Source of the DNA: Alicyclobacillus sp.
GTDB lineage: Bacteria > Bacillota > Bacilli > Alicyclobacillales > Alicyclobacillaceae
Direction of reading: 5' to 3'
Assembly (NCBI GenBank): GCA_023511295.1
Contig: JAIMBT010000009.1
Span: forward strand, 62,001-126,000
DNA length: 64,000 nucleotides
How positions within the stretch are numbered: the stretch's first letter is position 1; each line of letters opens with the position of its first letter. The position numbers and the translations under genes are program-made. The notes below the pieces were generated by a model, which was not told the origin of the DNA, ran no database searches, and saw nothing but the letters and a program-made list of their open reading frames with translations. Below, piece after piece: positions 22,782 through 28,424 of this stretch.

Positions 22782-23051
22782 ATGAGCCATACGACGTCCG
22801 TCATCGAGTATCTGCGCCAAAAGATGATTGAGACCGCCGAGCGAGCGCAGAGCTTCACAGACCCGGCCGTGATTGCCGTCAGTCAGCGTTTAGATCAATT
22901 CCTGGTCCAAGAGCAGCAGCTGCAGCGACGGGCGCCCATGTCCGCCGACCACACCGGGACCGCGCCGCGGCGCGCGTTGGAGTCGACTTGGGGTGCGCCA
23001 CTTCCTGGCTGGTTCTGTGCAGTGTCGCCCCGCCCATCCGCCCATTCCTGA
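22782..23051 (+). CDS. Spo0E-like aspartyl-phosphate phosphatase
   Basis: 89 residues; the first 45 match the Spo0E family, whose members dephosphorylate Spo0A~P and delay sporulation. The helix IEYLRQKMIETAERAQ and the signature S-Q-R-L-D (residues about 34-38) are visible. The family is usually 50-60 residues; here a low-complexity, Pro/Ala-rich tail of about 40 residues follows and may be a non-conserved extension. The nearest good ribosome binding site (GGAGAGAGG) is unusually far, about 15 nt, from ATG 22782, suggesting weak translation. Confidence 0.75.
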   Translation: MSHTTSVIEYLRQKMIETAERAQSFTDPAVIAVSQRLDQFLVQEQQLQRRAPMSADHTGTAPRRALESTWGAPLPGWFCAVSPRPSAHS

Positions 23052-23443
23052 AGCGGCCGGTACGGACCACACTCGGTTGAGACATGCATTCGAGTCGGCG
23101 TGTCGGTTTGTGTCCGTCCACCTGTCACGCAGTTGACGACGGCGCAGGAAGTGTGTCGATTGTGGAGATTTCTTCGCATGTGTCGATACCGATTGCACGC
23201 CCATCCACAATTTCTCCAAATTCGAAACATGAAATATACAAACCAATGCCACCCACCAGTCACATGCCGCGGGTAACATGGACTCAGGACAGCGGACGCG
23301 AACGCCTGCAAGCTCACGTCGGCGGCGTCCGTGGCTGTGTCGAGCACGCCATCGCCGCGGCGTGCTGGTGTTCCTTCGCATGCGACGATTTACGGGATGC
23401 TATCCCCGATGTTCGGTTGAACAAGGAGGATTGAGGCGGTTTG
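23052..23443. other. Intergenic region before the acylation operon
   Basis: About 390 bases without a supportable gene. It contains an inverted repeat ATTGTGGA (23159-23166) and TCCACAAT (23214-23221) about 47 nt apart, and an AT-richer patch around 23200-23240 that could hold the operon promoter. No clear -35/-10 pair was identified. Confidence 0.45.
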
Positions 23444-24835
23444 ATGACGTCGGTTCCAGCTCGCAGCGTCACCCTTCGGATGCCCATGCGGATTGAGCGT
23501 CTCCCGGTGACCCGGTTCACGTGGCGCATTGTCCTGTTGGCAGGGCTTGCCTGGTTTATCGAATCGTTGAGTATCGGTTCGCTCGGAGTCGCACTCAACC
23601 CACTCCAGCAGGTCATGACCCTCTCTCCTGGCGAGATTGGCATCCTGACGGCTTCGTCCACGTTCGGTGTCGTGCTTGGACTGATTCCTGCCGGATTCCT
23701 CGCAGATAAACTGGGACGCAAGCGCGTCCTCGTCTGGGGCATCGTGGAGTACAGCCTCCTGACGCTGCTGTGCGCGGCGAGCCCGAATTACGCGACATTG
23801 CTGGTGCTGCGATTCCTGTCCGGTCTCGGCATGGGGGCCGTCTTTCCACTCCCGTACGCCATTGTGAGCGAGTTGGTCCAAAGCCGACAACGCACCCTGT
23901 TCAACGGTGTGATGGACGCATTTTTGTCCATCGGCTATTTCATTGCTCCGCTGCTTGGCCTCTTCATTCTCCCGAATTTCCCGGTCCACGTCGCGTGGCG
24001 CGTGTTTTTTGCGGTGTCTGCCCTACCCATCCTGTACGCGGGCGTCATCCGCCGGTGGCTCCCGGAGTCACCTCGCTGGTTGGAGCGGCACGGTCGGTAT
24101 GAGGAAGCGGAGCGTGTGATGCGGCAGATTGAGGGGCATGTCCAGCGCCTCACGCGAGCACCTCTGCCGCCACTCACAAGGGAGAAAACCGTCGTTTCCG
24201 TGGTCGACACCCGCGTCTCCGCAGGGACACCATGGAACCGGTTGTACCGCCGGCGCACCGTGTCGCGGTGCGTGGCGGCCATCGGTACGTTCTTCATGTT
24301 CTACATCGTCATGACCTACATGCCGACCCTGTTCAGTCGGCAGGGTTTGTCGTTCGCGCACTCGTTGCTGTTTACCGCCATCATTACCGGTGCTGCGATT
24401 CCCGGCAAGTTGTTGAATGGCTGGTTGGCCGAGCACTTTGGCCGCAAGGCGACGTTTGTCGCCTTCATGGGGCTGGCTGGCGTGGCCGCTCTGTTCTTCG
24501 GGCTCGCCACCACGGCAACAGCCATGGTTCTCTACGCCTGCATCATGTCGTTCTTCGGCACCGGAGCATTCCCGGCACTGAAGATGTCGTACGCGGAGCA
24601 GTACCCAACGCACGTTCGGACGACGGGGGCGGCCACGGTGGAGACGCTCGGGCGGTTTGTCGGTGGCGTGGTGGGCTCCTACGCGATGCCCGTCCTCTTG
24701 AGCGAACCGCACGGTGTGGCCGTCGGTTTCTACGTGGTGAGTGCCGTGGCCCTTGTGGCCGTCGCAGTGGAGCTGTGCTTCTCGCCGGAAACCAAGCAGT
24801 CTACCTTAGAACAACTGGAAGCGAGTGTACGATAG
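23444..24835 (+). CDS. MFS transporter, sugar/metabolite:H+ symporter type
   Basis: 463 residues with 12 membrane segments. Sugar-porter/aromatic-acid symporter motifs are present: GFLADKLGRKRV in the loop 2-3, RRWLPESPRWL before the central loop, and PETKQSTLEQL at the C-terminus. The substrate is unknown. The start is ATG 23444 (TTG 23441 possible), with AGGAGG at 23424-23429 and GAGGCGG nearer. It is the first gene of a four-gene operon; its stop overlaps the acyltransferase start by 11 nt, so its cargo may be the acylated product or its precursor. Confidence 0.88.
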   Translation: MTSVPARSVTLRMPMRIERLPVTRFTWRIVLLAGLAWFIESLSIGSLGVALNPLQQVMTLSPGEIGILTASSTFGVVLGLIPAGFLADKLGRKRVLVWGIVEYSLLTLLCAASPNYATLLVLRFLSGLGMGAVFPLPYAIVSELVQSRQRTLFNGVMDAFLSIGYFIAPLLGLFILPNFPVHVAWRVFFAVSALPILYAGVIRRWLPESPRWLERHGRYEEAERVMRQIEGHVQRLTRAPLPPLTREKTVVSVVDTRVSAGTPWNRLYRRRTVSRCVAAIGTFFMFYIVMTYMPTLFSRQGLSFAHSLLFTAIITGAAIPGKLLNGWLAEHFGRKATFVAFMGLAGVAALFFGLATTATAMVLYACIMSFFGTGAFPALKMSYAEQYPTHVRTTGAATVETLGRFVGGVVGSYAMPVLLSEPHGVAVGFYVVSAVALVAVAVELCFSPETKQSTLEQLEASVR

Positions 24836-26033
24836 ATTGGCGAAAAAACACCTGTATGAGATTGACCTGATGCGGGCCTTCATCATGTTGAGCGTTCTGT
24901 CGGTGCACACGACTTCGTTCTTCAATTCCATGAACATCGATGGGACGCCGACCTTTTTGACGTTTGGCGCCATCATCACGGGATTGCACTACACCCGCGA
25001 GGCGTTCATGTTCATCACCGGGCTCGTGCTCTTTGTGACCTACTACCGGCGAGAATTTCACACGCTGCAGTTTTGGAAGAAACGGTTCCTGCTGATTGTC
25101 ATCCCGTACATCGCGTTCAACATCCTCTACATCTTGTTTGCGGGTACGTATCAGCAAGGGTTCAGCTGGACTTGGCCGTACCTGTGGCATCAGTTGTGGT
25201 TTTACTTGGCGAGCGGAAATCAGTGGTTCCTGTACTACGTGTTGGTCTCCATTCAGTTGTACATCGTCTTCCCACTGCTCCTCTACGGCTTGCGCAAGTT
25301 TGAACGCTGGCATCTCCAGATTTTCATTGGAAGCTTCATCTTGCAGCTGCTGTTCATGGGGGTGGATAAGTTTTATCTGGAACACGTCAGTTACACGACC
25401 TTCGGGCCGGTGCTCGGCCAGATTGACCTGTACCGGGATCGGTTCATCCTGACCTACCAGTTCTGGTTCATCGCCGGGGGCATCGTCGCATGCCACTACG
25501 AGCGCATTCTGGCATTCGCCGACCGGCATCGTGTCGCCTTGCGCGCGTCTCTCGGCATTGCGCTCGCTGTCCTGTGGGGTCATTACTTCTTCGACCGATT
25601 GGTCTTGCATGAGCCGGAATCGCTGGCGGAGTTGGTCTTACAGCCCATCATGATTCCATACAGCCTGATTGCGGCTGCAAACATGTGGTACGCCGGCGTG
25701 TCCTGGGCTCGCCGCCGTGAACAGCCGGGCTGGCAGCGGTTCAGCTGGTTCGTGATGACGGCGGCCAACGCGTCGTTTGGCATCTTCTTGCTGCAGCCGT
25801 TTCCGCTGCACTACATGGAACAGACCATCATTGCGTTGGCCCGTCACGGGGTACCGGAGTGGATCCACTTCTGTCTCTGGCCGGTGTCCATCTTGTTTGT
25901 GTACCTGTCGGGCATGTTCATCGCGCATTGGATTGGAAAGGTTCCATACCTGGCGTATATCGTCGGCCGCAAGGTGAATGGGCCGAAGCCCCAGCAAGCC
26001 GTTCTCAAGAGAGGAGCTGAACTGAATGTCTGA
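24825..26033 (+). CDS. Acyltransferase family 3 (AT3) membrane protein
   Basis: 402 residues with about ten membrane segments. The N-terminal helix carries the AT3 signature (IDLMRAFIMLSVLSVH, with the conserved Arg and catalytic His). AT3 proteins move acyl groups from acyl-CoA across the membrane onto sugars, polysaccharides or antibiotics. The start is a GTG overlapping the upstream MFS gene by 11 nt and the stop overlaps the ligase start by 8 nt, so it is translationally coupled on both sides. The acceptor cannot be deduced. Confidence 0.88.
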   Translation: MYDRLAKKHLYEIDLMRAFIMLSVLSVHTTSFFNSMNIDGTPTFLTFGAIITGLHYTREAFMFITGLVLFVTYYRREFHTLQFWKKRFLLIVIPYIAFNILYILFAGTYQQGFSWTWPYLWHQLWFYLASGNQWFLYYVLVSIQLYIVFPLLLYGLRKFERWHLQIFIGSFILQLLFMGVDKFYLEHVSYTTFGPVLGQIDLYRDRFILTYQFWFIAGGIVACHYERILAFADRHRVALRASLGIALAVLWGHYFFDRLVLHEPESLAELVLQPIMIPYSLIAAANMWYAGVSWARRREQPGWQRFSWFVMTAANASFGIFLLQPFPLHYMEQTIIALARHGVPEWIHFCLWPVSILFVYLSGMFIAHWIGKVPYLAYIVGRKVNGPKPQQAVLKRGAELNV

Positions 26034-27621
26034 ACTCACCAGGTCCTTGCGGTCTGTTCTGGACTGCCCTGCGCCGTTGATACACGACCATCATCGCTGG
26101 TACGACACAGGCGAACTGCGCAGGGATGCCGACACCATCGGACGACTTCTCGACCGCGCCGGCGTCCGGCCCGGGCAACCGGTCGTCGTGGCGTATCCGA
26201 ACTCCTACGCGTTTGCGGCGGTATACGCCGCACTGCTGTTACAGGGCATCCCGGTCGCCCCGGTCAACCCGGCCATCACGCCGGCGGAATTGGCGACGTT
26301 CCTGGAACGGAGCGGCGCGGTGTGCGGCTTCTTCACCGCTCGCCAGGCGGACGTGCTGCAGCAACTGGCAGAGAAGGCTGCAGTCGGCGGCGTGAGCTGG
26401 CCATTGCACACTGCGTTCGTCGGGCGTCCCGAGCACTCCCCCGTTCCGATGTGGCGCTGGTCGTGGACTGCCTCTGGATGGTTGCAGCAAGCCGTGGTGC
26501 CCGGCCCGCCGGACGAGGCGGACACGGATGCGAGGAACAGCTCGAAGACGGTGGAACCGGCGGATACGGACATCGGGGTGATGCTGTACACGTCGGGCAC
26601 GACCGGTCGACCGAAGTGCGTGGGGTTGCAGCATCGCCACCTCCTTGCCACAGCGCGCCAGGTGGTGCGTTCACACGAGCTCACACCCGCTGATGTCACG
26701 TACTGCTTTTTGCCGCTCTTCCACATCAACGCGCAGGTGGTAGCGCTCTTGTCCACGTGGCTGTCGGGCGGGCGCGTCGTGATTGAACCGAAGTTCAGCG
26801 CGTCGCGCTTTTGGGCTGCCGTTGCCGAGCACGGGATCACGTGGGTCTCGGCCGTGCCGACGGTGATTGCCATCCTGCTCCGGACCGATGGACCGGAGCG
26901 GGCACCGGTCAGTTTACGGTTCGTCCGGTCCGCTTCGGCGCAACTCCCGGCACTGCACCAACGGAGCTTCGAGCGCCGCTTCCAGGTTCCCGTCATCCAA
27001 TCCTATGGAATGACGGAAGCAGCCAGCCAAATCTGCGTGAATCCGATTGAGCCAGGCGCTGCAAAGGCCGGGTCCGTGGGATTGCCGTGCGGGGTCGAGC
27101 TGCGAATTGTGGACGGCGAAGATCGGCCGCTGCCGCCAGGCAGGGTGGGGGAGGTGGCGATTCGTGGAGCCAGCGTGATTGACCGCTATGAAGACCTCGG
27201 TGTGACCGACGACTTCCGGGGCGGCTGGTTCCATACAGGGGACCTGGGATACGTCGACGAAGAAGGGTTCGTCTTCCTGACCGGGCGGAAGAAGGAGATG
27301 ATCAATCGCGCAGGCGAAAAGGTCAGTCCGTACGAGGTGGAGGACGCTATCCGAGCCCACCCCGCGGTGGCGCAGGTGGCCGTGATTGGCCTACCTGATC
27401 CGCTGTACGGCGAACGCATTGCGGCCTACGTGGTCCTGTCTGAGGGAGAGTGGGACGAGCAGACGGTGATTGCCGAGATTTACGAGACGTGTGACCAGAC
27501 GCTGTCGCGTTTCAAGCGGCCGTCCGAGGTGGAAATTCTGCCGGCACTGCCGGCTGGGCCGACGGGCAAGGTGCAGCGCCACCTCTTGAAGCAGACGATT
27601 CTCGCCCGGCAGATCTCGTGA
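26026..27621 (+). CDS. AMP-dependent acyl-CoA synthetase/ligase
   Basis: ANL-superfamily enzyme of 531 residues that activates a carboxylic acid as an acyl-adenylate and usually transfers it to CoA. The P-loop YTSGTTGRPK (residues about 188-197), SYGMTEAA, TGDLGYVDEEGFVFLTGRKKEMINRAGEKVSPYEVE and the catalytic lysine motif PTGKVQRHLLK are intact. No carrier domain is fused. Closest general resemblance is to medium/long-chain acyl-CoA ligases, but substrate length is not predictable. ATG 26026 has AGAGGAG upstream. In this operon it most likely provides the acyl donor for the AT3 protein. Confidence 0.9.
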   Translation: MSELTRSLRSVLDCPAPLIHDHHRWYDTGELRRDADTIGRLLDRAGVRPGQPVVVAYPNSYAFAAVYAALLLQGIPVAPVNPAITPAELATFLERSGAVCGFFTARQADVLQQLAEKAAVGGVSWPLHTAFVGRPEHSPVPMWRWSWTASGWLQQAVVPGPPDEADTDARNSSKTVEPADTDIGVMLYTSGTTGRPKCVGLQHRHLLATARQVVRSHELTPADVTYCFLPLFHINAQVVALLSTWLSGGRVVIEPKFSASRFWAAVAEHGITWVSAVPTVIAILLRTDGPERAPVSLRFVRSASAQLPALHQRSFERRFQVPVIQSYGMTEAASQICVNPIEPGAAKAGSVGLPCGVELRIVDGEDRPLPPGRVGEVAIRGASVIDRYEDLGVTDDFRGGWFHTGDLGYVDEEGFVFLTGRKKEMINRAGEKVSPYEVEDAIRAHPAVAQVAVIGLPDPLYGERIAAYVVLSEGEWDEQTVIAEIYETCDQTLSRFKRPSEVEILPALPAGPTGKVQRHLLKQTILARQIS

Positions 27622-28424
27622 AGGGGCAAGGGCGGCGCCGCGTCCGCCAAACGGTGAAGTACCTGCTGGTCGGCCTGTGTGTCGGGGCCAGTTTTCTCGC
27701 CGGTCGGATGACGGCACTGCCTGTGAACGCCGCTGTGCCGTATCGCCCAAGCGAGAACATCAAGCCGTCGAAGGCGTTGAAGCAGGAACGGGTGTTGGTG
27801 ATTGGCGGATCGATGGCGTATGGCTGGAAAGACCCGAACAACGACTCGTACATTCAACGGGCGTTCGACAGTCTGTCGAAGGCGACGGCAACCCAGTACA
27901 CGGTGGTCAACGACGCGATTGTCGGCGCGTCCGCGCACGGGTACGCGAGCAAGCACCTCGAGGATTACAAGCGGACGATAGCGACCCTCAAGCCGAGTGT
28001 TGTGGTCATCTCGTGGGGCCTGTTGAACGACATCGCGCAAAAGACGACCGAGGCCGTGTTTCAGGCGGCCATCCGGGCGGAGATTGCACCGGCGCTCGAC
28101 GCGCGAGCCCTCGTCCTCATCGTGACGCCGCCCGTTGTGCGCGCGAACGCAACGTACGCGGAACAGAAGACAATGAACTACATCGCGTGGGAAAAGGACG
28201 TCGTCGACTCGTACCGCAACCCGGATGTGGAGACCATCGACCTGTACGCGCAGATGATGCAGTACCTGAAGCTGCGGGGAGAGACGTACCAGCCGTATTA
28301 CGGAGACAACTGGCACCCCAACCAGGCCGGGCATATCCTGGCTGGGACGCTGCTCGAGAACGACATCCTGTCGGACTTTGGACAAGGCCCACTCGGGTTC
28401 ATCCGGTCGAAGACGGGCGCGTAA
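27618..28424 (+). CDS. Membrane-anchored SGNH/GDSL hydrolase
   Basis: 268 residues: an N-terminal signal-anchor (residues about 11-30), then an extracytoplasmic SGNH hydrolase domain. Block I reads VIGGSMAYGW (the serine nucleophile, with Gly in place of the usual Asp of GDS), block II has the Gly in VGASAHGY, block III the Asn in WGLLND, and block V the Asp/His in DNWHPN. Such enzymes esterify or deacylate extracellular glycans. The start GTG overlaps the ligase stop (GTGA). It is the last gene of the operon and probably completes or edits the acyl transfer started by AT3. Confidence 0.88.
   Translation: MKGQGRRRVRQTVKYLLVGLCVGASFLAGRMTALPVNAAVPYRPSENIKPSKALKQERVLVIGGSMAYGWKDPNNDSYIQRAFDSLSKATATQYTVVNDAIVGASAHGYASKHLEDYKRTIATLKPSVVVISWGLLNDIAQKTTEAVFQAAIRAEIAPALDARALVLIVTPPVVRANATYAEQKTMNYIAWEKDVVDSYRNPDVETIDLYAQMMQYLKLRGETYQPYYGDNWHPNQAGHILAGTLLENDILSDFGQGPLGFIRSKTGA

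Follow-up and report, generated by a model that had tools for sequence, protein, structure and literature searches.

Which acid is activated, and where is its acyl group delivered, by an operon in which a permease, a membrane acyltransferase, an acyl-CoA ligase and an extracytoplasmic SGNH protein are encoded together? The operon lies in a 64,000-nucleotide (nt) stretch of Alicyclobacillus sp. DNA (the window, meaning that whole stretch) and comprises, all on the plus strand, genes for a major facilitator superfamily (MFS) permease of the metabolite:H+ symporter type, predicted to import the acid (23444–24835; PF07690, PF00083); a stand-alone acyltransferase-3 (AT3) membrane protein of 402 residues (24825–26033; PF01757); an AMP-forming acyl-coenzyme A (CoA) ligase of the ANL type, 531 residues (26026–27621; PF00501, PF13193); and a 268-residue SGNH/GDSL protein (27618–28424; PF13472), which with the help of a structure model is predicted to be membrane-anchored and extracytoplasmic. 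On balance, we read the operon as a pathway of acylation across the membrane, in which the acyl group most probably derives from a small carboxylic acid that bears a sulfonate (3-sulfolactate, sulfoacetate or 3-sulfopropionate), a reading built on the operon itself, conservation of the module, exchange of its importer in relatives, linkage to ComA, and conservation of active sites.

All four reading frames are open, and successive genes overlap by 11 nt (MFS/AT3), 8 nt (AT3/ligase) and 4 nt (ligase/SGNH); the order, strand and overlaps described in an earlier note on this DNA are thus confirmed, and each family scores above its Pfam cut-off. Because 6 of 33 same-strand neighbours overlap in the window (as counted with a crude gene caller that trims starts), three overlaps in a row are not background, and the overlaps suggest that the four genes are translated as a set. 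A Shine-Dalgarno-like sequence for the ligase (AGAGGAG) is located within the 3' end of the AT3 gene. The statement of the same note that no carrier protein is encoded also holds, as none is found among the four genes that fill 23441–28424, where 23441 is an alternative TTG start of the permease.

The gene set is a conserved module and not a chance directon. In a sample of 121 genomes searched for close relatives of the window AT3 and ligase, such relatives are almost confined to the order to which the window belongs, and in 42 of the 45 ligase-bearing genomes of that order the genes for ligase and AT3 lie no more than ~4 kb apart; of the three exceptions, two are at contig ends, and the third (G020) has ligase and MFS together and AT3 elsewhere. 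A synteny check set beforehand, in which the scattering of homologous genes was not seen, therefore bears out the earlier treatment of the four genes as one functional unit. Of 80 named loci located by way of AT3, 14 have all four families, and gene order and orientation vary between genera while content is kept (MFS-AT3-LIG-SGNH; SGNH-LIG<>AT3-MFS; SGNH<>AT3-MFS-LIG; LIG-AT3-MFS, where LIG is the ligase). Named hosts include Alicyclobacillus, Ferroacidibacillus, Pullulanibacillus, Sporolactobacillus and many Lactobacillaceae. Across the phylum, sampled evenly with 398 genomes, the AT3 subfamily occurs in only 11, the window genome included, and the ligase adjoins AT3 in 3 of the other 10. An OmpR-type response regulator and a histidine kinase flank the module in several sister-family genomes (L086:11092-13084, L085, L102).

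This pattern of conservation bears on the possibility that the operon serves scavenging or catabolism, in which the SGNH protein would free an acid from an external ester, the MFS permease import it and the ligase start its degradation, AT3 having only a subsidiary part. Most SGNH proteins are esterases, and catabolic loci often pair a permease with a CoA ligase; however, AT3 plus ligase is the constant core of the module, while SGNH and MFS may be missing or replaced, and no downstream catabolic genes are conserved around the module. Scavenging is accordingly considered very improbable, the least favoured of the explanations discussed here.

The nature of the acid is suggested by the swapping of the importer. 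In Lactobacillaceae, Sporolactobacillus and one Streptococcaceae metagenome-assembled genome (MAG) no MFS was found, and an ABC importer instead follows or flanks AT3 and ligase. Its binding protein scores over the NCBIfam SsuA cut-off (TIGR01728) in both representatives tested and has the SsuA proteins of E. coli and Xanthomonas as its nearest solved structures, and its permease is closest to SsuC. When lactobacilli were resampled through SsuA instead of AT3 (251 genomes), SsuA was found in 58 genomes, and the 59 loci obtained contain AT3 in 56 cases, AT3 and ligase in 54, and AT3, ligase and a complete SsuABC in 49 (the 59 exclude a 60th fetched locus, L255, where Sporolactobacillus has a second SsuA and no AT3). 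In Xanthomonas citri SsuA the sulfonate is coordinated at Gln36, Gly68, Gly86 and Ser141 (PMC3839906), and TauA has a similar set (PMC6906117); among 76 aligned sequences these positions are Gln in 75, Gly in 75, Gly in 76 and Ser in 63. At many lactobacillar loci two different ligases occur inside one AT3-SsuABC region (L161, L162, L163, L164, L165, L168).

SsuD over cut-off occurs in 0 of the 251 lactobacillar genomes, compared with 2 of 14 control genomes, so that SsuD-type release of sulfur is not the fate of the imported sulfonate, and desulfonation in lactobacilli was rejected as a function of these loci. The same result counts further against scavenging. In known sulfonate assimilation SsuABC is paired with SsuD; the lactobacillar modules share the SsuABC-type importer but lack SsuD and couple the importer to AT3 and ligase.

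A second link to sulfonates comes from the family of the window itself. In Alicyclobacillus herbarius, A. shizuokensis and A. kakegawensis the gene order is MFS-AT3-ligase-ComA-VOC, and in A. herbarius the genes for the ligase and for ComA (phosphosulfolactate synthase) overlap by 4 nt. ComA and VOC also stand by the module in A. fastidiosus (with SGNH) and in MAG HSP1.bin40, and in genome G006 they stand by an AT3 without ligase. The ComA proteins tested score 280–295 bits with PF02679, and the best PDB match of A. herbarius ComA is B. subtilis ComA (1u83). Altogether ComA lies within ~3 kb of AT3 in 8 of the 121 genomes, in four arrangements, where chance would give ~0.2 such genomes in the family (a rough figure that takes about two of each gene per 3.5 Mb); on the ligase tree the ComA-linked state requires three changes. 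A small VOC/glyoxalase-family protein is found beside every module-linked ComA seen (L117:12756-13151, L145:6576-6962, L139:6939-7316), and in A. suci (L143) VOC is kept and ComA is gone. An AT3 without ligase is present at a nearly constant distance of ~18–20 kb from ComA in many Alicyclobacillus genomes (G004, G019, G026, G029-G034 and G039). Most Alicyclobacillaceae have one or two ComA genes and no ComB phosphatase.

The window genome (99.6% complete) has no ComA and no SsuA above cut-off, and the window MFS is therefore, on the simplest reading, the candidate importer of the acid. It scores 202 bits with PF07690 (MFS_1) and 145 bits with PF00083, and its counterparts in the same module of sister genera are 68–71% identical to it; in all, the module is served by two MFS types, with ~70% and ~32% identity to the window MFS. 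The earlier note had left open whether the permease exports or imports a small molecule, and of the two an importer feeding the ligase is more likely, since an ABC importer replaces the MFS in lactobacilli.

The ligase (PF00501, AMP-binding, 243 bits; PF13193, AMP-binding_C, 70 bits) keeps the ANL adenylation motifs TSGTTG, YGMTEA, TGD and GPTGKVQ. Its closest solved structures are the plant and yeast oxalyl-CoA synthetases (AAE3, Pcs60), with which it shares the motif RF[VI]RSxS[AS]. In quick trees the AT3-linked ligases, the window ligase among them, form one clade (with one unlinked member) that is distinct both from oxalyl-CoA synthetases and from other ANL enzymes on the same contigs; separation from the three PDB enzymes has support of 98 and 100 in two trees. 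Window-type ligases differ from oxalyl-CoA synthetases also in being nearly always near AT3 in the order, and the oxalyl-CoA synthetase motif FHVHG reads FHINA in the window ligase. Oxalate was therefore rejected as the leading substrate. Within the clade the window ligase groups with MFS-only, ComA-linked (A. herbarius) and SsuABC-linked (Sporolactobacillus) ligases at 98% in the Shimodaira-Hasegawa-like approximate likelihood-ratio test (SH-aLRT), and in the larger tree it is nearest to ComA-linked ligases. A sulfonated substrate for the window ligase would be consistent with this grouping.

The linkage to ComA and SsuABC would be explained equally if the sulfonate were the acceptor, with the ligase activating some other acid and AT3 acylating, for example, sulfolactate to give an exported or membrane sulfonolipid-like compound, and some AT3 proteins do acylate small molecules. 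However, import places the sulfonate in the cytoplasm together with the ligase, and the acceptors of AT3 enzymes normally lie on the other side of the membrane; in addition, the ligase groups near small-diacid enzymes and not fatty-acid ones. This arrangement is judged improbable.

Several observations weigh against a sulfonated acyl group. ComA is common in any case (72 of 121 genomes), and most of the Alicyclobacillaceae lack ComB, the phosphatase through which free sulfolactate is usually made. Neither SsuABC nor ComA, both seen in relatives, is adjacent to the window locus, and most Alicyclobacillales copies of the module have only MFS; the substrate proposed here is carried over from relatives. 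The window MFS falls under every NCBIfam cut-off shown, and its best match is to aromatic acid symporters (TIGR00895). SsuA-type proteins bind various sulfonates, AT3 paralogues without ligase occur as orphans, support for the ligase set that joins window, ComA and Ssu members is 88 once more rows are added, no acceptor gene is linked to the module, and no sulfo-acyl surface group is described in the literature searched.

Some of these points would be expected if the same export logic served an ordinary short-chain, dicarboxylic or aromatic acid, with ComA and SsuABC as accidental or lineage-specific neighbours: the MFS match to aromatic acid symporters and the lack of a sulfonate gene at the window locus are of this kind, and the position of the ligase clade as sister to oxalyl-CoA synthetases and the acyl groups known for AT3 proteins, which include acetyl, succinyl and methylmalonyl (PMC9558356), fit an ordinary acid as well. 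Yet AT3 at 56 of 59 SsuA loci together with recurrent adjacency to ComA is hard to call accidental, and the FHINA of the window ligase departs from the oxalyl-CoA synthetase motif. The link to sulfonates, which the earlier note had missed, lowers the odds of an ordinary fatty or short-chain acid, and an ordinary acid of any of these kinds is regarded as a rather unlikely substrate.

The two proteins that would handle the acyl group at the membrane retain the features of their families. The AT3 protein scores 89.3 bits with PF01757 (Acyl_transf_3) against a gathering cut-off of 31 and has the R-x10-H motif of the first helix (R17 and H28; 24873–24908, plus strand), both residues being invariant in 17 aligned sequences; it thus belongs to the family by score and by motif, and acyl transfer activity is predicted on these grounds. 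Its model is all-helical, with a predicted local distance difference test (pLDDT) score of 88, and a Foldseek comparison with the PDB gave no significant match, HGSNAT being reached only at a TM score of 0.37. No fused SGNH domain is present at its C-terminus, the SGNH protein being encoded by a separate gene. The latter scores 51 bits with PF13472 (Lipase_GDSL_2; cut-off 33), and its model (pLDDT 89) shows a GDSL-hydrolase fold preceded by an N-terminal helix at residues 5–31. Blocks I, II, III and V are all represented (S65, G103, N137, H233): the nucleophile Ser65 in GGSMAYG of block I (27810–27812, plus strand) is invariant in 20 sequences, and in block V (Asp230 to His233, DNWHPN; 28305–28316, plus strand) His233 is invariant and Asp230 nearly so, while N137 of block III is Asp in several relatives. 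Outside the operon, the next gene downstream, on the opposite strand, encodes TerC, and a small open reading frame upstream (22782–23051) encodes a Spo0E-like sporulation regulator (PF09388, 40 bits).

In the sulfonate pathway that we favour, the acid would enter the cytoplasm through the MFS permease, where relatives would import it by SsuABC or make sulfolactate with ComA; the ANL ligase would convert it through an acyl-adenylate to acyl-CoA; AT3 would accept the acyl group from cytoplasmic acyl-CoA and deliver it outside; and the anchored SGNH protein would either edit it or hand it on to an acceptor at the surface, which may be the wall, an exopolysaccharide or a lipid head group. Lineages without SGNH would rely on AT3 for this last transfer. 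The outcome would be a cell surface that keeps negative charge at low pH. An acyl-CoA donor and the succession of ligase, AT3 and SGNH stay the best reading of the operon. Sulfo-acyl-CoAs are known in Firmicutes, for example 3-sulfopropionyl-CoA (PMC11489063), so the proposed donor is chemically reasonable. In sulfoglycolysis, too, Firmicutes have ligases that act on CoA thioesters of sulfonated acids, namely HpfYZ and SqwKL for sulfopropionyl- and sulfoacetyl-CoA (PMC11489063); unlike the window ligase, these are of the ADP-forming succinyl-CoA-ligase type, work towards ATP and have no AT3.

Literature searches found no report of this gene set, although parts of it resemble known systems and its proposed mode of working is like that of AT3-SGNH and Dlt systems. 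With AT3 and AT3-SGNH enzymes (OatA, OafA/OafB, ExoH, OpgC) the operon shares the R-x10-H AT3 domain, a probable acyl-CoA donor and an SGNH partner outside the membrane; it differs in its separate SGNH gene, its own acyl-CoA ligase and importer, and a probably sulfonated acyl group. The earlier note had described the operon as Dlt-like. DltABCD does combine an adenylating enzyme, a polytopic acyltransferase and an anchored SGNH-type protein in one operon, but here AT3 replaces the MBOAT protein DltB, a CoA ligase replaces the D-alanine-carrier ligase, DltC is absent and a permease is added; as the membrane enzyme matches PF01757 only (no MBOAT) and no carrier gene is present, membership of the Dlt system was rejected. 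PatA/PatB, which O-acetylates peptidoglycan, also has a membrane acyltransferase with a separate SGNH partner, but PatA is an MBOAT and the pair has neither ligase nor permease; WecH, an AT3 protein, is able to work with PatB (PMC9558356). The 2022 review of AT3 proteins mentions neither ligases nor sulfonates (PMC9558356).

As a tentative extension, held with somewhat less than even confidence, acidophilic and acid-tolerant Firmicutes may coat their surface with sulfolactyl, sulfoacetyl or sulfopropionyl groups by means of AT3 with its own ligase and importer, so that charge would stay at low pH and the lactobacillar SsuABC would serve the coating and not sulfur nutrition. A sulfonate is ionised at pH 2–4, where carboxylates largely are not, and most of the named hosts prefer or tolerate acid, a property confounded with taxonomy; charge at low pH is thus a rationale for the role and not evidence for it. 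AT3 proteins are thought to use acyl-CoAs of central metabolism, and a dedicated importer and ligase supplying the donor would make the choice of donor by AT3 testable. Should the acyl group prove to be sulfonated, Alicyclobacillaceae and widely used Lactobacillaceae would carry a surface modification of a new class; the lactobacillar SsuABC genes without SsuD would then have a function, and there would be a hint of how cells dwelling in acid retain their surface charge.

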